Source of the DNA: Xenococcus sp. MO_188.B8
GTDB lineage: Bacteria; Cyanobacteriota; Cyanobacteriia; Cyanobacteriales; Xenococcaceae
Reading direction: 5' to 3'
NCBI GenBank assembly: GCA_030065615.1
Contig: JASJDR010000003.1
Location: 1 to 64,000, forward strand
DNA length: 64,000 nt
In this document: positions 736 through 17,928 of the stretch, piece by piece
Layout of the letters: each line of letters starts with the position of its first letter
Position numbering within the stretch: position 1 is the first letter of the stretch
The notes under the pieces: model-generated
What the model was told of the DNA's origin: nothing
What the model saw: the letters and a program-made list of their open reading frames with translations, nothing else
Database searches by the model: none
Position numbers and translations under genes: made by a program

Positions 736-2609
736 ATGAGCCAAATCACTATCCAATGTCGCTTAGTAGCATCAGAATCTACCCGCCGTCATTTATGGAA
801 ATTAATGGCAGAAAAAACACGCCATTAATTAACGAACTACTGACGCAAATAAACAATCATCCAGAATTTGAAGAATGGCAGTCTCAGGGGAAATTGCCTG
901 CAACTATAGTTAGTGAACTCTGCAAATCTCTCAAAACCGAGCCTCTTTTTGAAGGTCAGCCTTCTCGTTTCTACCTTTCAGTAATCAAATCAGTAAACTA
1001 CATCTACAAATCCTGGCTCAAACTACAGCAACGCAGACAACGCCAACTTGAAGGACAACAACGTTGGCTATCAATGCTTAAAAGCGATACAGAACTTTTA
1101 AAAGAATGTGAATGTAGTCTCGATATTCTGCGAAAAAAAGCCAAGGAAATCCTTACCGATATAGAAACTAACTTAGAAAAATTCCAGAAAAAACCAAAAA
1201 GCGATCGCATTCCGAAAAAATCTTCACTTCTGTTCGATCTATTTGACCAAACTGAAGAGACTTTGACTCGTTCTGCTATTTGCTATTTACTCAAAAACGG
1301 CTGCAAAATACCAAAACCCGACAAACCAGAAAACAGCAAGAAATTTGCTCAACGTCGCCGTAAAGTAGCAATCAAAATAGAAAGACTTCAACACCAAATT
1401 GAAGGTAGTCGTCCTCAGGTCAGAGATTTAACAGGGGAACAATGGCTAGAAACCCTAATGACAGCTGCAACTACTGCCCCCAAGGACAATAAAGAAGCTA
1501 GTTCTTGGCAAGATGTACTACTGACTAAACCAAAGTCTCTTCCTTTTCCCATCACCTTTGAAACTAACGAAGATTTGAAATGGCACAAAAATGAGAAAGG
1601 TCGGCTTTGTGTTCGGTTTAATGGCTTGAGTAAACATACCTTTCAAGTTTACTGCGATCGCAGACAGCTACATTGGTTTCAACGTTTTTTAGAAGATCAA
1701 CAAATTAAAAAAGAAGGCAAAGATAACCATTCCAGCGGATTATTTACCCTTCGTTCAGCAAAACTTACTTGGCAACAAGACAAAGCTAAAGGTAAGCCTT
1801 GGAACGCTAATAGGTTGATTCTGCACTGTACTGTGGACACTAGATTTTGGTCAGCAGAAGGAACTCAACAAGCTCGTCAAGAAAAAGAGGCTAAACTGCT
1901 AAAAACTATTGATAGTATGAAAGACAAAGGCGAGTTAAGTCCTAATCAACAAGCTTTTGTTCAAAAAAAACACTCTACATTAGCTAAGTTACATAATTCC
2001 TTTCCCCGTCCTTCTCGTCAACTTTATCAAGGAAAACCCAATATCATTCTTGGCGTAGCAATGGGTTTGGACAAACCAGCTACAGTCGCTATTGTTGATG
2101 GAGTTGAAGCAAACGCGATCGCATTTCGCAACGTCAAACAACTTTTGGGAAAAAACTATCGATTACTCAATCGCCAAAGACAACAAAAACGCAATTTATC
2201 TCATCAACGTCATAAAGCTCAAAAACAAGAGGGTAATTACCAACTAGGCGAATCCAATTTAGGTCAATATATCGATCGTCTTCTTGCTCAAGCGATTATC
2301 GAATTAGCACAAAAATATCAAGCTAGCGTGATCGTAGTTCCTAAAATTGAAGACATGAGAGAAATAGTCCAAAGCGAAGTTAAAGCCAAAGCAGAAGCGA
2401 AAATTCCAGGCTATGAAGAGGGACAAAAGAAATATGCTAAGAAATATCGCATTAACATCCATAATTGGAGCTATGCTAGATTAATTGAAAGCATTACAAA
2501 TCAAGCTAACAAATTAGGGATTGTCATCAAAGAAGCTAAACAGCCCGTTCGTGGTAGTCCCACCGAAAAAGCCCAAAAAATCGCGATCAGCGGAGCTGGC
2601 ACTGCGTGA
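736..2609 (+). CDS. cas12k: Cas12k, RNA-guided target-binding effector of the CAST; frame broken at an A6 run
   Basis: Cas12k binds crRNA/tracrRNA and marks the target for TnsB/TnsC/TniQ without cutting it. The sequence is clearly related to ShCas12k, e.g. NTPLINELL, GQPSRFY, KSRSAI/TRSAI-type YLLKNGCK, LPFPITFETNEDLKW, RQLHWFQRFLEDQQ, LNRQRQQ and QPVRGSP. The RuvC-I region reads GVAMGLDKPATVAIVDG, as in catalytically inactive Cas12k. The family N-terminus (MSQITIQCRLVASESTR) starts at ATG 736 in one frame, which stops soon after an A-run at 812-817. Everything downstream is in the -1 frame, which is also open from an upstream ATG at 708 that gives an unrelated leader. Joined by a -1 shift the protein is about 624 residues, the family size. 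The last ~12 residues also differ from ShCas12k. It could be a programmed frameshift, a sequencing error or a pseudogene. Confidence 0.93.
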
Positions 2610-3103: not shown

Positions 3104-3292
3104 GTCACAATCTATTTCGGTGAATGAGATGGATTGAAAGAGGCATGTAGCTACGCAATGCTTAGATATTTATCGCTACAAGTCACAATCTATTTCGGTG
3201 AATGAGATGGATTGAAAGATTATATAGAAAGATGCACCAAAAAAATTAACTAGTAGAGTCACAATCTATTTCGGTGAATGAGATGGATTGAA
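3104..3292 (+). CRISPR. Short type V-K CRISPR array, three repeats and two spacers
   Basis: The repeats are 37 bp, beginning GTCACAATCTATTTCGG and ending GATGGATTGAAAG. Copies lie at 3104-3140, 3182-3218 and 3258-3292; the last is degenerate at its 3' end (ATTGAATC instead of ATTGAAAG). Spacer 1 (3141-3181) is 41 nt and spacer 2 (3219-3257) is 39 nt. The repeat ends in GAAAG as in other V-K systems and pairs with the anti-repeat of tracrRNA copy A. No match of the spacers inside this window was noticed. Confidence 0.97.
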
Positions 3293-3334: not shown

Positions 3335-3590
3335 TCGCGCCGTAGTTTATGTTCTAGTAAACCTCTGTGCTACGAAAAATGTGGGTTAGTTTGGTTATTG
3401 TAAAAATAATCTTGCTTTCTGACCCTAGTAACTGCTCGCCCTGATGCTGCTACTAATTTAATTAGTAGGAATAAGGTGCGCTCCCAGCAATAAGGGTATG
3501 GGTCTACTATCGTAGTGGTTACTGAATCACCTTCGAGCAAGAAGGATTTTCTTGAAAACAGAACATGAAAGCAAATCCAGTATCGCCCAA
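3335..3590 (+). ncRNA. Second tracrRNA (copy B) fused to a truncated repeat and an 18-nt tRNA-Val guide: natural single guide RNA
   Basis: Copy B repeats the tracrRNA blocks CTTGCTTTCTGACCCTAGTA, CTGATGCTGCT, CTCCCAGCAATAAGGG and TACTGAATCAC, but with many changes. After the hairpin CTTC-GAGCAA-GAAG (3531-3544) the RNA folds back on itself: ATTTTCT (3546-3552), a 7-nt loop, then AGAACAT (3560-3566), pairing at 6 of 7 positions. GAAAG (3567-3571) follows, identical to the repeat end, and then the guide CAAATCCAGTATCGCCCA (3572-3589). This is the design of an engineered V-K sgRNA. The guide equals the sense 3' end of tRNA-Val at 3817-3800, next to a GTT PAM. The role in homing is inferred from V-K delocalised crRNAs. 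Confidence 0.9.
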
Positions 3591-3673
3591 AATTATTATG
3601 TACTTGATTAGCGATAAAGGAGTTAAGATCAATCTAGGTTTTTGTCATCTAACAAAATGAAAGTAAGTCTTGG

Positions 3674-3755
3674 GACATATAATTTGTTAAGCGTCATCTT
3701 ATTTGTTAAAGCGACATTAATTTGTTACCGATGACAAACAATTAGTTACTGTACA
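3674..3755 (+). repeat. CAST right end: four TnsB-type repeats and terminal TGTACA
   Basis: Four related repeats lie about 20 bp apart at 3674-3689, 3693-3708, 3713-3727 and 3733-3748, of the form GACATnnAATTTGTTA; the last reads TGACAAACAATTAGTTA. The terminus CTGTACA (3749-3755) follows. This closely resembles the ShCAST right end, where spaced GACA...TTTGTCA repeats end in CACTGTACA. TnsB binds such repeats for transposition. Confidence 0.9.
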
Positions 3756-3799: not shown

Positions 3800-3871
3800 T
3801 GGGCGATACTGGATTTGAACCAGTGACGTCCTGCTTGTAAGGCAGGCGCTCTACCGCTGAGCTAATCGCCC
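3800..3871 (-). tRNA. tRNA-Val (UAC); CAST attachment target
   Basis: The 72-nt gene reads GGGCGATTAGCTCAGCGG at its 5' end and GGTTCAAATCC in the T arm. The anticodon stem CCTGC/GCAGG encloses the loop CTTACAA, giving anticodon UAC. CCA is not encoded. The sense 3' end (3817-3800) is the exact match of the homing guide at 3572-3589, and the three bases before it (3820-3818) read GTT, a GTN PAM. The gene stays intact because insertion occurred about 45 bp past its 3' end. Confidence 0.97.
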
Positions 3872-7399: not shown

Positions 7400-7999
7400 A
7401 TGTTTTCCTTAGACAAAATATTAAGTAAGATTACTGAAAAACCAGAATGGCAAGAATATCAGCAATATCAACAATTATTAAAATTTTGGCCCCAAGTTAT
7501 TAATCGTAAAATAGCTCAAAATACACGTATGCTCTATTTTTCTAGAGGAATTTTGGGGATAGCAACTTCTAGTGCAGTTTGGGCACAAGAACTTACTTTG
7601 CAGAGATATTCGCTGCTAAAACGACTTAATAAGCATTTAAAATTTGATGTTAAAGATATACGCTTTACTCCCGCTAGATGGGATAATACCATCAATCAGC
7701 ATAATCAACCAAATTCATCCAAAAAGTCTAATAATAAAGAAAATATAGCTTTTTTCTTGGATAAACTACCAGAACCTGAAACCAATATTTCTACGCCTAA
7801 AACACCTAATGAGAGCTTACAAACTTGGTTAGAAAAAGTAAAAATGCGATCACAGACTTGGTCTCTTTGCCCTCAATGTAACTCTCCAACACCGCAAAAA
7901 GAACTAGAACGCTGGCATTTATGTTGCCATTGTATGGCACAGCAAAAACACTTAGAGTACCGCCCTACAACATTTTTTAATACTAATAACCAAAAGTAA
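7400..7999 (+). CDS. DUF721/DciA-like protein with C-terminal zinc ribbon
   Basis: The protein has 199 residues. The N-terminal part (about 5-95) has the DUF721/DciA pattern: WPQVINRKIAQNT, then LYFSRGILGIATSSAVWAQEL, and a final IRFTPARW strand. DciA-type proteins help load the replicative helicase in bacteria without DnaC/DnaI. A linker is followed by CPQCNSPTPQKELERWHLCCHC (22 residues between 153 and 175), which looks like a zinc ribbon with CxxC pairs. It is divergent from menE. The helicase-loading role is inferred from family only. Confidence 0.75.
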   Translation: MFSLDKILSKITEKPEWQEYQQYQQLLKFWPQVINRKIAQNTRMLYFSRGILGIATSSAVWAQELTLQRYSLLKRLNKHLKFDVKDIRFTPARWDNTINQHNQPNSSKKSNNKENIAFFLDKLPEPETNISTPKTPNESLQTWLEKVKMRSQTWSLCPQCNSPTPQKELERWHLCCHCMAQQKHLEYRPTTFFNTNNQK

Positions 8000-8308
8000 T
8001 AATCTCGTCTTTAACCCTAGGTAGCATCTTTTGAAGTGATCCCCTATGCTTTTACCAAGATTTTCCAAATAATATTAGCGTTCAATAATCTGTAATTCAT
8101 GATACAATTACCGATTATTTTTAGCTTCTTGTATACATTTATTAACCAATAATAAAGAGAATCTTAAATTAAAAATATATCGGGGATCGCGATAACCCAG
8201 ATGTCATCAATACTTGTCTTATTTTTCTGCGGGGATCACTAAGAAGCACAATTGATAACAACACACACTTAGATGGATTAATTAAGCTTTTTTGCAATTA
8301 CGATCCCA
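8000..8308. other. Intergenic stretch without recognised gene
   Basis: The 309-base gap is AT-rich and holds no convincing reading frame or RNA. CGGGGATC occurs twice (about 8180 and 8231), but no larger structure was seen. Confidence 0.4.
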
Positions 8309-8590
8309 ATGAAGAGAGTTGATTTTTTGAATTCTTCCTGTCGTCACTGTCGTTTTTATCGGCCAGAAGGGCGGAGGGGGGGAGTTTGCCAAAAGTTAAG
8401 CGTGCCAGTTGATAGCAATTGGAAAGCCTGTACTTTAGCTTGTTCTCCTTTTACAAACAGTTTAAAAAAACTAGAAGATATTGTCCATTTAGAAACTGCT
8501 TTTTCACTCAGGTACGCCAATCAGCCTTCTTTAAAGGTTAATCCTAAGACCCAGGAAATTGTTGGTACAACCAATAATAAAACTTTATAA
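8309..8590 (+). CDS. Conserved cysteine-rich cyanobacterial protein, 93 residues
   Basis: The N-terminal 45 residues contain CRHCRFYRPEGRRGGVCQ and WKACTLACSPF, a likely metal-binding set of four to five cysteines. The C-terminal half is polar without clear motifs. I do not recognise a named family, but the cysteine pattern looks conserved and the start codon and frame are clear. No operon partner; menB is convergent downstream. Confidence 0.7.
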   Translation: MKRVDFLNSSCRHCRFYRPEGRRGGVCQKLSVPVDSNWKACTLACSPFTNSLKKLEDIVHLETAFSLRYANQPSLKVNPKTQEIVGTTNNKTL

Positions 8591-8765
8591 AAAATTTGAG
8601 TTTGTCTAGATACTCCGATGAGTTTTGCTTATTTGCTATAGTTGTGACTTTAACAAGGCTACTTTTAATATCAATTAGCGTCAAGTTTTTTTATCTCCAT
8701 AATCGAAAGTCGCACCATAACAGGATATAGGTACGACTTTTTCTTGAATTTTGCTTAGGCAAAAT

Positions 8766-9599
8766 TTATGGTAACCAAGGATATTGACGGAAATCTGGCG
8801 GACGTTTTTCTAAAAAAGCTTGTTTTCCTTCCGATCCTTCCTCAGTCATGTAATAAAGCAAGGTGGCATTTCCTGCCAACTCTTGTAAACCGGCTTGACC
8901 ATCACAATCAGCATTAAAAGCAGCTTTCAAACAGCGAATAGCAATCGGACTTTTTTGTAAAATTTCTTGTGCCCATTTTATTCCTTCTGTTTCTAATTCA
9001 TCTACGGTCACAACATGATTAACTAAACCCATAGTCAAAGCCTCTTGAGCTTGATATTGACGGCAAAGAAACCAAATCTCTCTGGCTTTTTTCTGCCCTA
9101 CAATTCTTGCTAAGTAGCTAGCGCCAAAACCTCCGTCAAAACTTCCTACTTTGGGGCCAGTTTGACCAAAAATAGCGTTATCTGCTGCAATAGTCAGATC
9201 ACAAATCAGATGTAAAACATGACCACCACCAATTGCATAACCAGCTACCAAAGCAATAGTCACCTTTGGTAAGGAACGAATCAATCTTTGTAAGTCCAAC
9301 ACATTTAGACGAGGTACACCATCATCATCTACGTAACCAGCTTTTCCCCGAACAGTTTGATCTCCACCAGAGCAAAAAGCATACTTGCCATCGGTATGAG
9401 GTCCCGCACCAGTCAAGAGTACGACGCCAATTTTACTATCTTCTTTAACATCCCAAAAAGCATCGTACATTTCAAAAACAGTTTTAGGGCGAAAGGCATT
9501 ACGTTTATGAGGTCGATTAATTGTAATTTTGGCAATACCATCCCATTTTTGATATAGGATATCTTCATAGTTTTTGCTCATTTGCCAAGGAATATTCAT
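8766..9599 (-). CDS. menB: 1,4-Dihydroxy-2-naphthoyl-CoA synthase
   Basis: MenB closes the naphthoquinone ring by converting succinylbenzoyl-CoA to DHNA-CoA. The 277-residue protein is a crotonase-fold enzyme with [14 protein letters not shown] near residue 26, the oxyanion-type segment [14 protein letters not shown] near 72, [20 protein letters not shown] near 120, [14 protein letters not shown] near 146 and the usual C-terminus ending in RQYPWLP. Length and motifs agree with cyanobacterial MenB. menE lies upstream in the window on the same strand but separated by two plus-strand genes. Confidence 0.95.
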
Positions 9600-9996
9600 A
9601 GGTTATGGGTATTAATAAAGTTTTGCTTTGCGACTTTAGGCATATTAGCGCAAGCGAGTAGATTTTCTCCCTAGCTTGATTGTCAGCGATCGCGTAAGTA
9701 TTAACTATAAATACTTGACAAAACTTTATTAACTAATTATGAATTTTGACGTATTAATAGTGGGGATCAAAGCTAAAATACTTTCAACAGTTTAAGCTGT
9801 GATTATATTCTAACTAGAAGATCACATAAATTGTTTAATTTAATCAAGCGTTAATTAGTGAGAAATTAAACAAAACTTAACAAAGAAAAAATACAATTAT
9901 TTAACCCTTGTGTCCCTCGTACTGGCGCGTTTCTTAGGAGATTTTAATCCTTAGGATCGCTTGTTAAACAAATAACTGTAAATCAAGGTAAGTAAA
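9600..9996. other. Intergenic region upstream of the zinc-ribbon gene
   Basis: The 397 bases are AT-rich with one near-HIP1 site near 9688. They presumably contain the menB promoter (reading left) and the promoter of the gene at 9997. No RNA structure or small gene was recognised. Confidence 0.4.
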
Positions 9997-10215
9997 ATGT
10001 CTGTCACCCAAATTATTCGTTGTCCCAACTGTGGGAATTTTGCAGAAAGATATAATAATTTAGAAAGTCATATTATGCGTACTGCTTGCAATAGCTGTGA
10101 CTATTTGCTGGTACAATGCGCCAAAACTTGTAGAGTTATTGAATCTTACGCTCCTGGAATTAATTATGCTGTGCCTCAAGTGACGAGACCCTTAGTTGCC
10201 CACAAGCAGCGTTAG
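9997..10215 (+). CDS. Small zinc-ribbon protein, 72 residues
   Basis: The protein has two CxxC-type pairs, CPNCG near residue 9 and CNSC near 31, followed by CAKTC near 41, so a small zinc ribbon is likely. The N-terminal half ([14 protein letters not shown]) is typical of short cyanobacterial proteins of unknown role. Its last 56 bases overlap the 3' end of rlmN on the other strand. Confidence 0.75.
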
Positions 10216-11209
10216 CTTCGAGACCCCGAGAATAACGAACACTAACAGCTATTTTATGTTGTTGTAAAATTCCTTTGAATTGATTAATGCGTTGCTTACT
10301 AGGACGCTGATAATCGACTTCGGAAATCGGATTATAGGGAATAAGATTAACATGAGTTTGAAAACCCCTTAGATGTTGAACTAATTCCTCAGCATGTTCT
10401 GGCAAATCATTCACTCCAGAAAGCAAAATATACTCAAAAGTTACTCTTCTTCCCGTAATCTGAACATATTCTCGGCATTCAGCGAGTAAAGATTTTAGAG
10501 GATAATGCTCGGCGCTGGGAATTAAAGTTTCTCTTAAGCGTTGATTGGAAGCATGGAGACTCACCGCAAAAGTAACCTGTAGTTTGTGCTGAGCTAATTC
10601 GCGGATTTTACCTTTTAGACCTACTGTAGATATTGTAAGCGATCGCTGAGCGATCCCCACATCACTATTAAGAGATTTTACAGCCGAAACTACCTCATCA
10701 ATATTAATTAAGGGTTCTCCCATGCCCATAAAAACTACATTACTAACTCTTTGGCCAAAATCTTCCTGGACTGTTAACACTTGATCGACAATTTCATAAG
10801 CTTCGAGGTTGCGCTCAAAACCGCCCTTTCCTGTAGCGCAAAAATCGCAAGCCATTGGACAACCGACTTGGGAAGAAACACAAACGGTTAAACGTTTCTC
10901 GGTAGGAATTCCCACAGCCTCCACAATTAACCCATCATGTAGTTTGAGTAGATACTTACGAGTCTGATCGGGAGCAATACTGCAATAATGAATTTGAGAA
11001 CGACCTATTGGTTGTTCAGCAACGGATTCGCGGAATTTCTTGGGAAAAACCGTAATTTCATTCAGCGATCGCACTCCTTTATGGTATAACCATTGATATA
11101 ATTGCTTTCCTCTGTAAGCAGGTTGTCCTTGTTCTTCGATCCAGCTGGTTAATTCTTCTACCGACTTTCCTAAAAGAACTTCTGGTTTTGTTGATAATTG
11201 ATGATTCAT
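10160..11209 (-). CDS. rlmN: Dual-specificity 23S rRNA/tRNA adenine C2-methyltransferase
   Basis: RlmN is a radical-SAM enzyme that methylates A2503 of 23S rRNA and A37 of some tRNAs. The 349-residue protein has the radical-SAM cluster C117-x3-C121-x2-C124 ([20 protein letters not shown]), the GMGEPL motif near residue 163, the RSLTISTVG segment and a conserved C-terminal cysteine in EANAACGQL. The gene starts just downstream of the GlcF-like gene on the same strand (25 bp), suggesting co-transcription. Confidence 0.96.
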
Positions 11210-11234
11210 TCTTAGCTCTTAAAATGTTCAATGT

Positions 11235-12548
11235 TTAATGCTTAATGACTTTAATTCCTCGGATAGAATAATCCAATAACTCGACCGGATGTAAAACAAG
11301 AGGTTGTCTATGTTTAGCTTGTAAATGTTTCTTAATTTGTAGAGAACAACCAGGATTAGGAGAAGCGATGATCTCCGCACCAGTATTCAATAAATTATTA
11401 ACCTTTTGTTGTCCCAACTCATTAGCAACTTCTGGCTGCAACATATTATAAACTCCCGCACTACCACAACAGATCGCAGCATCGATAGGTTCTCGTAATT
11501 TTACTCCTGGTATTTTCTTAAGAAGTTGACGAGGTTCTAAACTAATCTTTTGTCCATGTAACAAATGACAGGCATCTTGGTAGACAATAGTTAAATCTTC
11601 ATCAGCTAAAGGTGATAGTTTAGATGTCAAATCAATAGTTGCTAAAAACTCTTGAATATCTTTAACTTTATCAGAAAAATCTTGAGCTACTTCTCGATAT
11701 TCTTCATCATTAGCCAAGATAGAACCATATTCTTTTAAGGTATGTCCACAACCGGCTGCATTAATAATAATTGCATCGACATTAGTATCCCTAAAACTAT
11801 CGATCATTTGTTTAGCCAAACTTTGCGCCTGGGTTTCTCTTCCTTGATGAGCAGGTAAAGCAGCACAACAACCCTGACTTTTCGGAATAACAACTTCACA
11901 ACCATTAGCAGTTAAAACTCGAACCGTTGCTTCATTAACAGGGGAGAAAAATAATCTTTGCACACAACCTAAAATCACGCCAACTCGGTAGCGTTTTTCC
12001 CCTTGAGCGGGAATAATCTCTGGAAAATTATCTTGAAAAGAATTAACTGATACTTGAGGTAAGATTGACTCCATTGCCGCCAACCGAGACCATAGCTTAT
12101 CTAATATTTTGGTATCACGAATTATTTTCTGCAATCCAGATTTTTGATACAACCAAAGTGCAGGCAGCAAACTACGTAAACGATTGGGGTAAGGAAAGAG
12201 ATTAAATATTATAGTTCTGATTAATCTATCCGAGAAACTTCGCTCTTGATGTCTTTCCAATTGAGGACGAGTTTGGGCAATCAAGTGATCGTATTCTACT
12301 CCAGCAGGGCAAATGGTCGTGCAAGCCAAACAACCCAAACAACTGTCAAAATGTTGCACCGTAGTCTTTTCTATTGTAGCTTCTCCTTTCGCGATCGCGT
12401 CCATTAAATAAATTCTGCCCCTCGGAGAATCCATTTCTTTGCCAATGATGCGGTAACTAGGACAAGTCGCAAGACAAAAGCCGCAGTGAACACAACTATC
12501 AATTAATTCTTGTTGAGGTGGATTTAGATTATCAAAATTAGTAGTCAT
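11235..12548 (-). CDS. glcF: Glycolate oxidase iron-sulfur subunit-like (GlcF)
   Basis: The 437-residue protein has two [4Fe-4S] ferredoxin motifs, C19-VHCGFCLATC-P near the N-terminus and CLGCLACTTICP near 70, then two CCG-type cysteine domains (GCVQRLFFSPVNEA, GCCAALPAHQG, CCGSAGVYNMLQP). GlcF passes electrons from glycolate oxidation. In many cyanobacteria glycolate dehydrogenase is GlcD plus GlcF; glcD is not in the window, so a related lactate/glycolate Fe-S protein is possible. Confidence 0.87.
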   Translation of the reverse strand: MTTNFDNLNPPQQELIDSCVHCGFCLATCPSYRIIGKEMDSPRGRIYLMDAIAKGEATIEKTTVQHFDSCLGCLACTTICPAGVEYDHLIAQTRPQLERHQERSFSDRLIRTIIFNLFPYPNRLRSLLPALWLYQKSGLQKIIRDTKILDKLWSRLAAMESILPQVSVNSFQDNFPEIIPAQGEKRYRVGVILGCVQRLFFSPVNEATVRVLTANGCEVVIPKSQGCCAALPAHQGRETQAQSLAKQMIDSFRDTNVDAIIINAAGCGHTLKEYGSILANDEEYREVAQDFSDKVKDIQEFLATIDLTSKLSPLADEDLTIVYQDACHLLHGQKISLEPRQLLKKIPGVKLREPIDAAICCGSAGVYNMLQPEVANELGQQKVNNLLNTGAEIIASPNPGCSLQIKKHLQAKHRQPLVLHPVELLDYSIRGIKVIKH

Positions 12549-13017
12549 TTATAGATGAGATCTTATAAACAGTTGCACATCTCCATAGTTTACTAATTTT
12601 AATGGTCTCATCTTTTACGTAACCGGACTTAATTAAATTTGGGATATGCTGAATTGCGGTATGATTTTTAAAATAGCAAACAGAAAAAAAATACCTGAAC
12701 AAGATTAATTATCTATTCTGAATTTTGTTCCCTATTCCCCTATTCGTCCCATCTACGTCGGATCTTATCCCATTTGTTAACTCGCGCGTCCCCCCCATTC
12801 TAGGATAAATAAAACTCATAGGGGTAGTTTATACCCAAATGCAATGGGTGCAACCATCACATAGTTTGATACACCGCAGGGTCGAGACACTTCGGGTAGA
12901 GCTTTGCAAGCGCAAGCAAGCGTCAATTTAATTTTGTCTACACACTTAGCTTGTAATAATTGTTGAGAAACGTAATTTCGTTAAAATAATGGCATCTAAT
13001 TACCTCTAGAGGATAGT
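12549..13017. other. Intergenic region with GC-rich repeat fragments
   Basis: The 469 bases separate divergent genes. Around 12870-12930 lies a mosaic of short dyads (GACACTTCGGGTAGAGC, GCAAGCGCAAGCAAGCG) like the dispersed palindromic repeats elsewhere in the window. No gene was seen. Confidence 0.4.
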
Positions 13018-13479
13018 GTGAACAATTCCGTAATCCAAACTGACTTAGCAGAAAATCAATCGCTTTACGAACAAGATTATTATCTTTGGCTCGACAAAAC
13101 TGTTGATAATCTTAACAATCAAAATTATCAAGAAATAGACTGGAAAAATTTAATTGAAGAGGTCAAATGCTTGGGGAAAAGTGAACAGAGAGCATTAAGA
13201 TTTTATCTAACTAGATTATTAGAATATTTATTCAAAAGATGTTACGTCGATCTTCCTCAATGCTATAAAGGTTGGGAAACAGAAATTAGAAACTTTAGAA
13301 ATGAAATTGAAGAAATATTAATTGATTCTCCTAGCCTAAAAAATTATTTGTTTAAAGTTCACTCTTTTTGTTATCAAAAAGCTTGGAAAAATATCAAAGA
13401 AGATTATCCTGATATTAATTGTCCAACTACTTTTCCTTTTGATATCGATAACTTATTAACTCAAAAATATTGGCATTAA
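13018..13479 (+). CDS. DUF29 family protein
   Basis: The 153-residue protein has the DUF29 pattern: YEQDYYLWLDKTVDNL, then IDWKNLIEEVKCLGKSEQRA, RLLEYLFKRCY and an all-helical C-terminus. DUF29 is widespread in cyanobacteria and of unknown role. GTG at 13018 is chosen as start because an AGAGGA ribosome site lies 5-10 bases upstream. It stands alone. Confidence 0.87.
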   Translation: MNNSVIQTDLAENQSLYEQDYYLWLDKTVDNLNNQNYQEIDWKNLIEEVKCLGKSEQRALRFYLTRLLEYLFKRCYVDLPQCYKGWETEIRNFRNEIEEILIDSPSLKNYLFKVHSFCYQKAWKNIKEDYPDINCPTTFPFDIDNLLTQKYWH

Positions 13480-13893
13480 TTTTATCATACTTCTCGGTGT
13501 ATGCTTACCCTTATTATCTTTATTCGAGAATCTTGACTTGTTTGCTATCTTTTTCTCTATAGTAATCGCAAAATTTATTTATTTAAACTTTTGGTAGCTA
13601 AATTGTCAAAATTTTTCTCTAGCTGATGTAGAGTTTGAGAAAGAGTGGACAGAAGAAACCCTAAAATCTTGAGTGACCATAATAATAAAAAATTTCTGAT
13701 GCTCCAGACAATTCACCAGGTAACGCTCCTAGTTTTGATTTAACTGTTAATGTAATGCTTAACCAATGACTGAATCATTTTCAGAAGATTACAACTTCTT
13801 TTAGCTCAAAATTATTTTCTTATCGACAAGAACCGTTATTCCCTAAAATTAATTATTCAGTATTGTCAGAGCAGATTGTTGGTATGATTCCTA
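13480..13893. other. Intergenic region with a possible gene fragment
   Basis: No complete gene was found. A short open stretch near 13699-13770 (reading DAPDNSPGNAPSFDLTV, then a stop) looks like a decayed coding fragment of unknown origin. The rest is AT-rich. Confidence 0.3.
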
Positions 13894-13914
13894 ATGACAG
13901 AAGAAGAAAAAATT

Positions 13915-14421
13915 ATGAGAAGTAAATTATTTAGATTAATATTAATCCTAGTGATATTTGTAGTTACTAGCGTCTGGACTCCATGGGGTACTAGACCAGT
14001 TATTGCCCAAGAAAATACTGTTAATTACACTTATAGCGAACTGAGAAACCAAGATTTATCTCATCGGGATCTATCTAGTGGCGTGTTTGCGGCTGCGGAT
14101 GTCAGAGGGAGTAATTTTGAAGGTTCCAATTTAAGTAATTCAATTTTGACTAAGGCAATTTTTACTGATACTAATTTGGCAGGAGTTGATTTAACTGGCT
14201 CTTTTATGGATAGAGTCGATTTAAGTCATGCTAATCTGACTAATGCCATTTTACAAGATGCGATCGCGACTAGCACTAATTTTAGTGATACTGATATTAC
14301 AGGAGCCGATTTTTCTGGAGCAATATTAGATCGCTATCAAGCCTATCTTCTTTGTCAAAGGGCAAAAGGAGTAAACCCCACCACTGGAGTGTCCACGAGA
14401 TCTAGTTTAAGCTGTAAATAA
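13915..14421 (+). CDS. Secreted pentapeptide-repeat protein
   Basis: The protein starts with a signal peptide (MRSKLFRLILILVIFVVTSV, cleavage near PVIAQE), followed by about 90 residues of A(D/N)LxX pentapeptide repeats such as ADVRGSNFEGSNLSNS and GVDLTGSFMDRVDLSHANL. It should form a right-handed quadrilateral beta-helix in the periplasm or thylakoid lumen. An upstream in-frame ATG at 13894 exists, but the ATG at 13915 directly precedes the basic n-region of the signal peptide. Exact role unknown. Confidence 0.85.
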   Translation: MRSKLFRLILILVIFVVTSVWTPWGTRPVIAQENTVNYTYSELRNQDLSHRDLSSGVFAAADVRGSNFEGSNLSNSILTKAIFTDTNLAGVDLTGSFMDRVDLSHANLTNAILQDAIATSTNFSDTDITGADFSGAILDRYQAYLLCQRAKGVNPTTGVSTRSSLSCK

Positions 14422-14437
14422 ATCTATAGACTTTAGA

Positions 14438-14467
14438 AAAACAAAAGGGGGAACGCTGGTTCACCCC
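14438..14467 (-). terminator. Rho-independent-type terminator of ndk
   Basis: On the minus strand GGGGTGAA pairs with TTCCCCC around a short loop, followed by TTTTGTTTTT. It lies 40-70 bp past the ndk stop and between two convergent genes. Confidence 0.7.
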
Positions 14468-14510
14468 GATCGAGCAAAAGATTATTTTCTAATCAATAAC
14501 CAAATTAGAT

Positions 14511-14960
14511 TTATTCGTATAACCAGGGTGTAATCGCAGGACTCCAGCTAACTAATTCCTCTTCTTTAAACCAAAGAGCAATTTCTGATTGAGCTGTTTC
14601 AATCGCATCAGAACCATGAATAATATTACGACCAATACTAACGCCGAAATCCCCTCGGATAGTTCCTGGTTCAGCAGTTAGAGGGTTGGTAGCACCAATA
14701 AGTTTTCTGGCACTAGCAACAACACCATCACCTTCCCATACCATTGCTACTACAGGAGCAGAAATAATAAAGTCAACCAAACTGCCAAAGAATGGTCTTT
14801 CTTTATGTACGCCGTAATGTTGTTCTGCTAGTTCGCGAGATACTTGCATGAGTTTCATGCCTACAAGAGTAAAACCTTTAGTCTCAAAACGACTAACAAT
14901 TTCCCCTACTAGGTTGCGTTGTACCCCGTCGGGTTTGATCATAATAAAAGTGCGTTCCAA
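14511..14960 (-). CDS. ndk: Nucleoside diphosphate kinase
   Basis: Ndk balances nucleoside triphosphates using ATP through a phosphohistidine. The 149-residue sequence is full length: [18 protein letters not shown] at the N-terminus, [11 protein letters not shown] near 55, and the active-site histidine H115 in [12 protein letters not shown]. It is followed by its own terminator. Confidence 0.97.
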
Positions 14961-15024
14961 GATTTCCCTCCCAGAGTATCAAAATTTGTCACAAACTACA
15001 GATTAACACTGACAGGTAAATCAA

Positions 15025-15260
15025 AAGTCACCGTTACACCGCTTGCGTCTTTCGCCGCCCTAACCCTAAAGGGTACCCCTTCGGATAAGGATACCGCTTC
15101 GCACGCCCCGAAGGTAGCGCTAAAGCATACCGCTCCGCATATCCTTTAGGATAACGCGGGTTCTGCCCGCTGCGGTGACCAGTGTTCCCCGGTCAAAATA
15201 AGGGGGAAAGCTTATTTTGAGTTCTCCGCGGGTTAAAACAACGCGGATTCTATAAGGTTG
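15025..15260. repeat. Palindromic repeat cluster and 3' hairpins of a TnpB element
   Basis: The region 15040-15180 is packed with short dyads (CCTAAAGGGTACCCCTTCGG, CCTTTAGGATAACGCGGG) of the type seen near 24400 and 63750. At 15194-15219 CAAAATAAG and CTTATTTTG form a perfect 9-bp stem with an 8-nt loop. On the minus strand this lies directly after the tnpB remnant, the usual place of the omega RNA and right end of IS200/IS605 elements. Confidence 0.6.
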
Positions 15261-15935
15261 TTACAAAGCAGTCTGAAGACACGCTTCTTCACATCTTATC
15301 CGATACAATTTACTCAAGTCGTTGAAGATGTCATATCGGTGTGGACGACTCAAAACGCCCCTAGTGACCTTGGCTAAAGATACATCCTTTAGCTGTGTCA
15401 TTACTTGCTTGCGGATAATATTTGCTGCTCCAATGCAATCTGAATTTGCCCAAATTCCGTCATCCGTTAAATAACCGCCACGACCAAGATTATTTAGCCT
15501 CTGTTTTATTTTCTTACCTCTTTTTCCTGTAAATCTATGCTTCCTTTCAGATTTTTCACCGAAGGTCGGAAGCTCATCATTAGCTAAAAAATTTGACTTG
15601 CTAGTATAGCTTTCTTCAGTCTCATAAAAGACAATTCCATGCTGAATTGCTAGCTGCTCAATTCTATTTTTAATAGCTGCATTGGGTATGGTTACAAATT
15701 CTTGGTTGACTTTTTTGGACATCTTAGACTCATTTTTGATACCTTGATTCCAGCCGTGAACAATCACCCCTACATCATTAGTCAAGCACCAGTTAATAAT
15801 GAAACGGGCAACCTTATTTCTGATATCCCGAAATTGTCTATTTCTTTTTTCAGACAAAGCAGCAAGTTTGTCATCCCAATAAGCTTGAGGCTTTCCTTTC
15901 TTAAGAGTAGCTACTTTTTTGTTGTAGAACTGAAA
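15261..15935 (-). pseudogene. TnpB (IS200/IS605-type RNA-guided nuclease) remnant, N-terminus missing
   Basis: The frame stays open from 15935 (after a TAA) to the stop at 15261, about 224 codons, beginning FQFYNKKVATLKKGKPQAYW. It matches the C-terminal half of TnpB: NQEFVTIPNAAIKNRIEQLA, then EESYTSKSNFL with the RuvC-II glutamate, and SDCIGAANIIRKQV with the RuvC-III aspartate. The N-terminal region with the first RuvC aspartate is gone; TnpB is usually near 400 residues. The first ATG (15857) would give 198 residues. It is most likely a dead element. Confidence 0.85.
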
Positions 15936-16157
15936 TTAATTGCTGTTGGCATCCGTACATTGTGTGATTTATTTGTATATTTAGTATGTTAATCATACAA
16001 TATATATAAACAAAAATATTAAAAAGTTATATGAAAAAAACGCCAGATGAGTATCGGCGGAATCCTCATTCAGTGACGCGGAAACGGCTGATTGCGCAAC
16101 TATCTTCTATTTAGTTATAAATTTATCAATAAATTTACTTTTGACAGGAAAAAGAGG

Positions 16158-16532
16158 ATGACAAAGTTACTTAAAAAAGGTCATCAGTGGCGCGTAGGAT
16201 GGGATTCTCATGCCCAAAAATATCAAGGTTTAGTCGGAAGCGATGATTGGGCGATTGAGCTAACTCCCGCAGAATTAAAAGATTTTAATCGTCTTTTGCA
16301 TCAATTAGTCACTACGATGGTACGAATGAAAACTGAATTGATGGCTGAAGAAAGAATTGCTTGTGAAGCAGAAAGTGAATTATTATGGCTGGAAGCAGAA
16401 GGATATCCTGACAATTATACTCTACGTTTAATTATTAATAGCGATCGCCGTTGTGAAGGGAATTGGGCTGAAGGGGTAGCCATTGAATTAGCAGCAGCTA
16501 CCCAGCGTTTAGTAGAAGAAAACATACCTTAG
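16158..16532 (+). CDS. DUF1818 family protein
   Basis: This 124-residue cyanobacterial protein has the DUF1818 features: HQWRVGWDSHAQKYQGLVG at the N-terminus, WAIELTPAELKDFNRLL, a central helix EERIACEAESELLWLEAEG, and SDRRCEGNWAEG near the C-terminus. ATG 16158 has the site AAAGAGG directly upstream; an upstream in-frame ATG at 16092 would add 22 unlikely residues. Role unknown. Confidence 0.85.
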   Translation: MTKLLKKGHQWRVGWDSHAQKYQGLVGSDDWAIELTPAELKDFNRLLHQLVTTMVRMKTELMAEERIACEAESELLWLEAEGYPDNYTLRLIINSDRRCEGNWAEGVAIELAAATQRLVEENIP

Positions 16533-16568
16533 TTTGCTTAAGTCTTTTTCGTCTCTCAATGACAGATC

Positions 16569-16820
16569 CTATTGGAGACAAAATTGACCACTAGTTAGAG
16601 TAGTTTCTCCATACTCAGGAATCCAAACAGCCCAGGTTTCAGGAGTATCTTCACAAAGAAGTAAGGCTTCATCCTGAGTATAGGGATTAGGTAATTTTAG
16701 TAGTTTTACCCAAGTATTGGGTTGAGGTGAAGGGTAATTCTGTGAGTAGGATTGGTATTTTAGTGGAACAGAACACCATTGCACTCTCGACTCTGAAGGG
16801 GCAAATTCCAGTTTATTCAT
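16569..16820 (-). CDS. Conserved hypothetical protein, 83 residues
   Basis: I do not recognise a family name. The protein is soluble and rich in Pro, Trp and Tyr (QWCSVPLKYQS, NTWVKLLKLPNPYTQDEAL, ETWAVWIPEYGE), with a pattern like a short beta-rich domain. It is convergent with the DUF1818 gene, 36 bp apart. Confidence 0.7.
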   Translation of the reverse strand: MNKLEFAPSESRVQWCSVPLKYQSYSQNYPSPQPNTWVKLLKLPNPYTQDEALLLCEDTPETWAVWIPEYGETTLTSGQFCLQ

Positions 16821-16923
16821 TTTTATGACCCCAAAAAATTACAATCGTTTTTTATTCTGTATACAAAGTTACAAAATAATAGATATCTAGGTCAAGAAAA
16901 CGTTTCATAACTTAAAAATAGAT

Positions 16924-17928
16924 TTAATTTAACCCCACTTCGTCTACTTCTGCGACAGAACATCTTGATGAAGCCCTTGGGGCATCTTTGAATAAATCAC
17001 TAATTTGAGTATCAGGTTCAATGTTTCCTTCTAGATTGAACCACAACTCCGTAATCATGGTTCTTCTCCTGGGGCGTTCATCTGTTTTACATTTAATTTT
17101 AACTTTTTTATCGACTCCATCTCCAAAAGCTTCAACCAACTTGTTCCCAATCTGAGTAGCAGTAATTTCCTCGCCAATGTTCTCCGCAAATAGATCTTGC
17201 ACTGCTGAATTATTAACTTGATCTAGTAGCACAAGAGACTCTCTAAAATATTCTTCTGGGGTCGTATTGTAGCAAGTTCCATGCTTATACCATTCGTGTC
17301 GGTGCAAATATGAGGCAATTCCTGGCATTTTGACTGCTAATTCTGCAAAAAGCTCCTCAGATAAATCTATAGGTGGTAAGTCTGACCATTTTTTATCCTT
17401 GTCTAGTTGTTTATTTCTCTGGCTGACGCCACAATAGTCATTACCTCTGGGCTGAGGCCATAAACCATGTAGAGTAAATTTGTCTGCATCAAAACGAGTT
17501 ACAGTTTGAGTTTCGCATTCTTCCTTATTGGGACGAGTTTCACAGAATGCTGATTGCCAACTGATAGCTAGTAAGTATTCAGGATTGTCTGGAACAGAAT
17601 TTCCTCCCCCGTTATCACCGATAGCGCCTAAGAGTTCCCCACAATTAACAGCAACCCAGCGTAACGAAGGATCGGCACCTTCAATTTTTAAACGATAATA
17701 AGTAGCATCTGGCTTATTTTTTTCTGTAGCTTGATAAGTTGTCCCAGGAACGATATTGATATTACCTGGATTAGTTCCTCTTCTGATAGATTGCAAGGCG
17801 TCACAAGTTCTAGTTGCTTGGAATTCGTTGTTAATCTTGATGCTTGCTTGGGCTGAATTTGTCCAGATAGTCAAGCTGAAACACAAGATTATTGTCAGGA
17901 AAAAAAGTCTCTTTAGAATAAGCATCAT
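16924..17928 (-). CDS. Secreted ribonuclease T2 family protein
   Basis: RNase T2 enzymes cleave single-stranded RNA via 2',3'-cyclic phosphates, usually outside the cytoplasm. A signal peptide (about 1-29, ending AQA) is followed by an SH3-like stretch with four cysteines (about 30-105) and the RNase domain (120-325). Both catalytic motifs are intact: CAS I FTLHGLWPQ with H154 and CAS II HEWYKHGTC with H211, E212 and H216. The start chosen is the ATG at 17928; the next in-frame ATG one codon on is equivalent. Confidence 0.93.
   Translation of the reverse strand: MMLILKRLFFLTIILCFSLTIWTNSAQASIKINNEFQATRTCDALQSIRRGTNPGNINIVPGTTYQATEKNKPDATYYRLKIEGADPSLRWVAVNCGELLGAIGDNGGGNSVPDNPEYLLAISWQSAFCETRPNKEECETQTVTRFDADKFTLHGLWPQPRGNDYCGVSQRNKQLDKDKKWSDLPPIDLSEELFAELAVKMPGIASYLHRHEWYKHGTCYNTTPEEYFRESLVLLDQVNNSAVQDLFAENIGEEITATQIGNKLVEAFGDGVDKKVKIKCKTDERPRRRTMITELWFNLEGNIEPDTQISDLFKDAPRASSRCSVAEVDEVGLN

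Follow-up and report, generated by a model that had tools for sequence, protein, structure and literature searches.

Type V-K CRISPR-associated transposons (CASTs; CRISPR, clustered regularly interspaced short palindromic repeats), whose effector is Cas12k, carry delocalized CRISPR RNAs (crRNAs) for homing, a discovery reportedly owed to Saito 2021 and Hsieh and Peters 2021. The published delocalized crRNA retains a repeat remnant of ~12–13 nt, has no scaffold of its own and would use the trans-activating CRISPR RNA (tracrRNA) of the array. Published V-K homing spacers have a GTN protospacer adjacent motif (PAM) and lie 46–82 bp from the transposon end (PMC9938897). The window analysed here, which is the whole stretch of 64,000 nucleotides from position 1 of contig JASJDR010000003.1 (assembly GCA_030065615.1) of Xenococcus sp. 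MO_188.B8, contains in its first 3.8 kb the end of a type V-K CAST, recognised from its sequence. The homing guide of this element shares with the delocalized crRNAs the position near the transposon end, the short guide (17 nt in the published form), the GTN PAM, the tRNA target, the insertion distance and the repeat end GAAAG (PMC9938897, PMC11656645, PMC11406308), and differs from them in that a second tracrRNA (copy B) lies directly upstream and the sequences for pairing in trans are gone. Judged by the sequences of the window and its relatives, copy B very probably serves as the scaffold of a natural single guide RNA devoted to homing on tRNA genes, which would be uncoupled from the array.

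The second tracrRNA copy and its guide

The two tracrRNA copies of the window are homologous, with 82.8% identity over 192 aligned positions (E 1e-45), and their similarity stops where the anti-repeat is expected to start. Copy A (approximately 2690–2899, + strand), identified by tracrRNA profile matches and by its pairing with the array repeat, ends in the anti-repeat AATCC...TCTC; beyond the point of divergence it reads AATCCTTTCTC, which forms a duplex of -12.2 kcal/mol with the array repeat, whereas copy B (3337–3545, + strand), identified by homology to copy A, by the profile and by alignment, lacks AATCC...TCTC, closes with the stem CCTTC-GAGCAA-GAAGG and pairs poorly with the same repeat (-3.5 kcal/mol). 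Neither copy was matched by Rfam. The CRISPR array (3104–3292, + strand) contains three repeats, located at 3104–3140, 3182–3218 and 3258–3292, and since the terminal one has the altered end GAATC instead of GAAAG, a working crRNA may not arise from the final unit of the array, next to copy B.

Downstream of copy B follow a 21-nt linker in place of anti-repeat and repeat (3546–3566, + strand), the surviving 3' end of the CRISPR repeat, GAAAG (3567–3571, + strand; identified by sequence comparison), which is complementary to a CTTTC within copy B, and the 18-nt homing guide CAAATCCAGTATCGCCCA (3572–3589, + strand). The linker is composed of ATTTTCT (3546–3552), TGAAAAC (3553–3559) and AGAACAT (3560–3566). 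The original prediction had placed the parts of the junction at exactly these positions and had held that copy B possesses no free anti-repeat, and both statements agree with the comparison of the copies. Pairing of GAAAG with CTTTC is reportedly part of the Cas12k guide RNA in the published Cas12k structures, with two repeat:anti-repeat helices, and would be expected here. The mini-repeat of the window (R*) is CAGAACATGAAAG, from which the GGNTT half is absent, and it therefore does not offer the repeat remnant of ~12 nt that pairs with the array tracrRNA in a classical V-K homing crRNA; scaffold and guide are instead contiguous on one strand, with no anti-repeat in trans, which in sequence is the layout of a natural single guide RNA.

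All 18 contiguous bases of the guide are identical to the 3' end of a tRNA-Val(TAC) gene (3800–3871, - strand), the homing site, with the protospacer at 3817–3800 (- strand) and the PAM GTT at 3820–3818. The transposon end (3640–3755, + strand, inner limit approximate) contains TTTGTTA-type repeats resembling TnsB sites and terminates in TGTACA (3750–3755), 62 bp from the PAM and so within the 46–82 bp known for V-K CASTs. A coincidental match of 18/18 bases adjoining a PAM at the correct distance can be dismissed.

The linker had also been predicted to form a hairpin in cis, which is supported in the family and weak in the window copy. The 7-bp junction stem of the window contains a T:C mismatch and amounts to +1.8 kcal/mol with it, the minimum-energy fold of the segment is unpaired (0.0), and the stem is no better than those of shuffled sequences (p = 0.34). 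Over 16 distinct junctions of the family, the summed stem length is 106 vs a mean of 62.5 and a maximum of 84 in 2000 shuffles, and the stems differ in sequence yet stay paired, such as AATTCTC/GAGAATT, AGTTTT/AAAACT and AATCCATC/GATGGATT. The junction hairpin is thus real at the family level, individually weak junctions including those of the window, L232 and L034, with the window version among the weakest.

Recurrence and conservation of the fusion

Cas12k was searched in 391 genomes of the order and matched in 102; the DNA downstream of cas12k was gathered, tracrRNAs were found by an iterated profile, and guides were sought among the 17-mers after GAAAG by their match to a target close by that adjoins a GT PAM. 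With up to 3 mismatches allowed, this search gave no guide for L036, L049 and ~30 other loci, and L036 was later read by eye. A plasmid search returned two Cas12k records only, both distant. The classical architecture, where the guide follows an isolated mini-repeat that usually lies hundreds of bases from a single tracrRNA, was found at 80 distinct loci, and the fused architecture, where the guide directly follows a tracrRNA, at 23 loci including the window, in 18 genomes and three Cas12k clades. The fused loci are the window, L032 (the same as L092, Prochloraceae MO_167.B51), L033, L034, L036, L037, L230, L231, L232, L233, L234, L235 and L246 in clade I; L088, L090, L238, L239, L240, L254, L255, L256 and L257 in clade II; and L040 in clade III. 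Five of them (L230, L232, L234, L235 and L246) have no cas12k in the fetched stretch and were assigned to clade I by their tracrRNA. The search of other V-K CASTs for tracrRNA-like sequence directly upstream of the delocalised spacer, which the original prediction had proposed, thus gave at least 22 further loci, and in place of the absence from relatives and the decay of copy B that would have spoken against the prediction, recurrence in three clades and a conserved copy B were observed.

Within clade I the fusion is present at every locus with a readable tracrRNA region, one of which (L231, G218:C211) is interrupted by an insertion of ~1 kb between the fused-type tracrRNA and a tRNA-Pro guide (guide at 1998). 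At L256 and L257 a fused guide RNA stands beside a tRNA and no cas12k was found in the fetched 7-kb stretch; these are possibly non-autonomous copies. Two loci fall outside the count: L067, whose mini-repeat is 81 nt off and whose linker folds no better than shuffles, was rejected, and L044, which has a single tracrRNA, a mini-repeat 41 nt downstream and an AATCC...GGATT pair in cis, was set apart as near-fused. Both are possible intermediates on the way to fusion.

In the Cas12k tree, where L092 duplicates L032 and hence counts as fused and L035 and L091 are without detectable tracrRNA, the fused loci form three groups with support of 100 each, two of which are perhaps adjacent, a placement that is weakly supported (44). 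The tracrRNA tree unites the copies B of clade I (96) and, separately, those of clade II (99); the latter are sister to the clade II copies A (95), and the copy B of L040 groups with its own copy A and L044. The sequences suggest that the fusion likely arose two to three times, the evidence for this count being moderate because the alignment is short.

Some elements seem to retain no tracrRNA apart from the fused copy. In L259 (genome G013), TGTACA motifs bound the element at 7420 and 17813 (element 7420–17818), and its one tracrRNA is fused to a guide that matches the adjacent tRNA-Leu. The gene content of L090/L259 comprises a Mu-type transposase (TnsB), TniB/TnsC, TniQ, a MerR regulator and an intact Cas12k of 642 amino acids, all of which look complete in L259, and neither a CRISPR array nor a second tracrRNA was found when both were looked for within the element; the two ends of L259 show no matching target duplication. 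Similarly, the fused copy is the sole tracrRNA after cas12k in L034 and L239. Reviews report CAST variants with delocalized crRNA but without array, and the fused RNA is not mentioned there (PMC11656645).

The loss of the trans-pairing sequences bears on a rival reading, in which a delocalized crRNA of the ordinary kind is cut out of the transcript and works with copy A, copy B being incidental. Published V-K homing crRNAs do consist of a truncated repeat and 17 nt (PMC9938897), and the window likewise has GAAAG and a guide. Yet the GGNTT half of the mini-repeat, which pairs with a tracrRNA anti-repeat, is kept, as GGNTTGAAAG, at 1/18 fused loci vs 74/80 classical ones, and the half that would pair with copy A is lost at 17/18; an anti-repeat after the last tracrRNA stem is present in 1/18 fused vs 96/108 non-fused tracrRNAs; and scaffold and guide are adjacent in three clades and in elements without copy A, for example L090/L259. 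We regard this explanation as very unlikely. The exception among the fused loci is L040, where a canonical repeat:anti-repeat helix is closed in cis, which plausibly represents an early form of fusion, with L044 looking like a step still earlier.

Even less credence is given to copy B being a functionless, decaying tracrRNA duplicate left by recombination, although the cas12k of the window is frameshifted, its junction hairpin is weak and L233 and L231 appear broken. The 11 aligned clade I copies B share one fold, with 98.2% of cells paired, and in this scaffold 12 pairs are changed on both sides compared with 4.3 in shuffles (0/500 as high) and 1–2 when partners are slid, while the change of the last stem from copy A to copy B, CCCC-GGGG to CTTC-GAAG, is itself compensatory. 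The CTTTC expected to be the partner of GAAAG is present in all full-length copies except L037, which has CTTTT. Against decay speak these compensatory changes, the junction stems kept despite sequence change, the well-supported clade of copies B beside unalignable flanks, and the guides, which fit the local tRNA.

This fit was scored at 18 fused loci with a GT PAM required and with L044 and L067 set apart: guide and adjacent tRNA differ by ≤2 mismatches in 17 at 15/18 (0 or 1 at 14, and 2 at L034), by 4 at L239 and by 5 at L036, whose 12 PAM-proximal bases are perfect. Four further loci (L254–L257) have 0–1 mismatches. The tRNAs targeted by the fused elements are those for Val, Ser, Asn, Arg, Tyr, Thr, Leu or Asp, varying by element, and the distance from PAM to transposon end is 42–64 bp at fused loci with a clear terminus. 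At L036 (G274:C61) the guide suits a tRNA-Ser and the element adjoins a tRNA-Asn, where the 12 PAM-proximal bases match at 42 bp from the PAM, an apparent seed-only insertion by sequence. The guide starts with C(A/G)A(A/G)TC after GTT, which corresponds to the universal tRNA T-arm, at 15/18 fused vs 12/80 classical loci, a comparison uncontrolled for phylogeny; guides directed to the T-arm may ease switching among tRNA genes. The least credible alternative gives copy B a regulatory role comparable to that of the Cas9 tracr-L, in which the fused RNA parks the nuclease-dead Cas12k on a tRNA gene for target immunity or tRNA regulation, since the targeted tRNA is the neighbour of the element and differs between elements, the distance from PAM to end is as published, and the only-fused elements hold no other guide for Cas12k.

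Proposed mechanism, expression and the surrounding element

The sequences show the anatomy, the conservation, the covariation, the loss of trans-pairing, the match of guide and target, the PAM and the insertion distance. The reading of copy B as part of a tracrRNA–guide fusion dedicated to homing, as originally predicted, is supported by the recurrence, the compensatory changes, the guides to local tRNAs and the only-fused elements, and its mechanism is drawn from the family comparison rather than from the window copy alone. In the proposed mechanism, a full V-K tracrRNA would carry a short cis hairpin in place of the anti-repeat:repeat duplex, and the remaining GAAAG could pair with the CTTTC of the scaffold and lead into the guide of 17–18 nt. 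Cas12k and the fused RNA alone would then find a conserved part of the tRNA gene beside a GTN PAM, and insertion of the transposon would follow ~60 bp away. We infer that the fused RNA is transcribed, remains one unprocessed molecule, is loaded into Cas12k and directs transposition. Copy A, with its anti-repeat intact, would serve array crRNAs only, and homing and array-guided mobility would therefore be kept apart by their RNAs.

In seven clade II loci the start of the RNA is preceded, at constant spacing, by a -10-like box, which reads TATAAT in L088, L238, L240, L254, L255 and L257 and TATAGT in L256, and TAGAAT/TACAAT lies nearby in L090 and L239; a dedicated promoter of the clade II fused RNA is likely from these sequences. 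The fused RNA of clade I may arise by read-through of the array transcript from the promoter of copy A, which is proposed because the CvkR study treats tracrRNA–CRISPR array transcripts jointly (PMC9938897).

Several observations weigh against a dedicated homing RNA: the clade I copies B have neither a conserved upstream box nor the motif that precedes copy A; the junction hairpin of the window is weak; the window element may be inactive, its cas12k being frameshifted; the guide of L240 matches no site in the surrounding 1.5 kb, and the guides of L036 and L239 fit their sites only in part; and many loci lie on short contigs, the set being phylogenetically clustered.

The cas12k gene of the window (736–2609, + strand) is matched by NCBIfam NF038191 (Cas12k) with 892.7 bits, with a frameshift near the N-terminus, which identifies the effector of a type V-K CAST, and a tracrRNA and a CRISPR array follow downstream as is typical of such elements. 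Its frame is broken near 811–816, where the A-run is A6 compared with A7 in the closest relative L092, and this shortening by 1 nt is a real mutation, a draft-assembly error or a slippage site. Beside cas12k, in a CvkR-like position, lies a MerR-type regulator (255–677, - strand; Pfam MerR_1, 7e-15), which agrees with the published gene order of V-K CASTs (PMC9938897). The tns side of the element is outside the view because the contig starts at base 1 of the window; TnsB-type domain matches are located on other contigs of the same 8.26-Mb genome. Additional partial cas12k genes, 44–47% identical, were observed in this genome (G000:C169 and G000:C316), which therefore once held other V-K elements. 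An open reading frame at 15261–15857 (- strand) resembles by eye the C-terminal region of TnpB-like proteins.

Comparison with known systems

The homing RNA of V-K CASTs is already known, and its fused, privatised form is probably new. Literature searches on V-K CASTs turned up neither a second tracrRNA nor a single guide RNA of natural origin, the founding V-K homing papers and the 2025 tracrRNA survey being outside their coverage, and an earlier mention of the fused guide RNA is possible, though rather unlikely. If true, the fusion would explain the array-independent chromosomal homing of some V-K CASTs by two non-interchangeable guide RNAs, not by two kinds of crRNA on one tracrRNA. Moreover, the array-less element lets the sufficiency of one natural RNA be tested directly.

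The V-K_V2 subgroup of Ziemann 2025 is reportedly found in Nostocales with Arc_2 regulators. As far as the accessible description of V-K_V2 goes, it likewise comprises V-K CASTs with an unusual tracrRNA, characterised as an alternative form whose regulatory features are distinct (PMC13383573), whereas the elements of the fused loci have MerR regulators and an ordinary V-K tracrRNA sequence, a comparison made by that partial description only. The type II-A tracr-L, a natural Cas9 single guide RNA, is similarly a tracrRNA-derived RNA with its own guide, but it belongs to another effector and architecture, is an alternative transcript of the sole tracrRNA locus and represses cas genes, whereas the fused form is a separate homing copy (PMC11417352). 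The engineered Cas12k single guide RNA (ShCAST type) also joins tracrRNA, closing loop, 3' end of the repeat and guide in one molecule; the fused form is natural, its native hairpins are varied and it coexists with a separate array tracrRNA. The putative natural Cas12k single guide RNAs, of ~240–300 nt with guide and with closing hairpins down to 16–17 nt, are candidate CAST tools.

The one-RNA arrangement of the TnpB omega RNA is ancestral, and Cas12 proteins descend from TnpB. The likely course of events is that V-K CASTs, probably repeatedly, made their two-part guide into a homing-only single guide RNA without shared pairing, and that some lost the array and its tracrRNA, becoming transposons with one RNA and one site that resemble TnpB and its omega RNA. 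Both systems use a single RNA as scaffold and guide (PMC10097598), a form that is ancestral in the TnpB omega RNA but derived from a two-RNA CRISPR system in the fused V-K elements.
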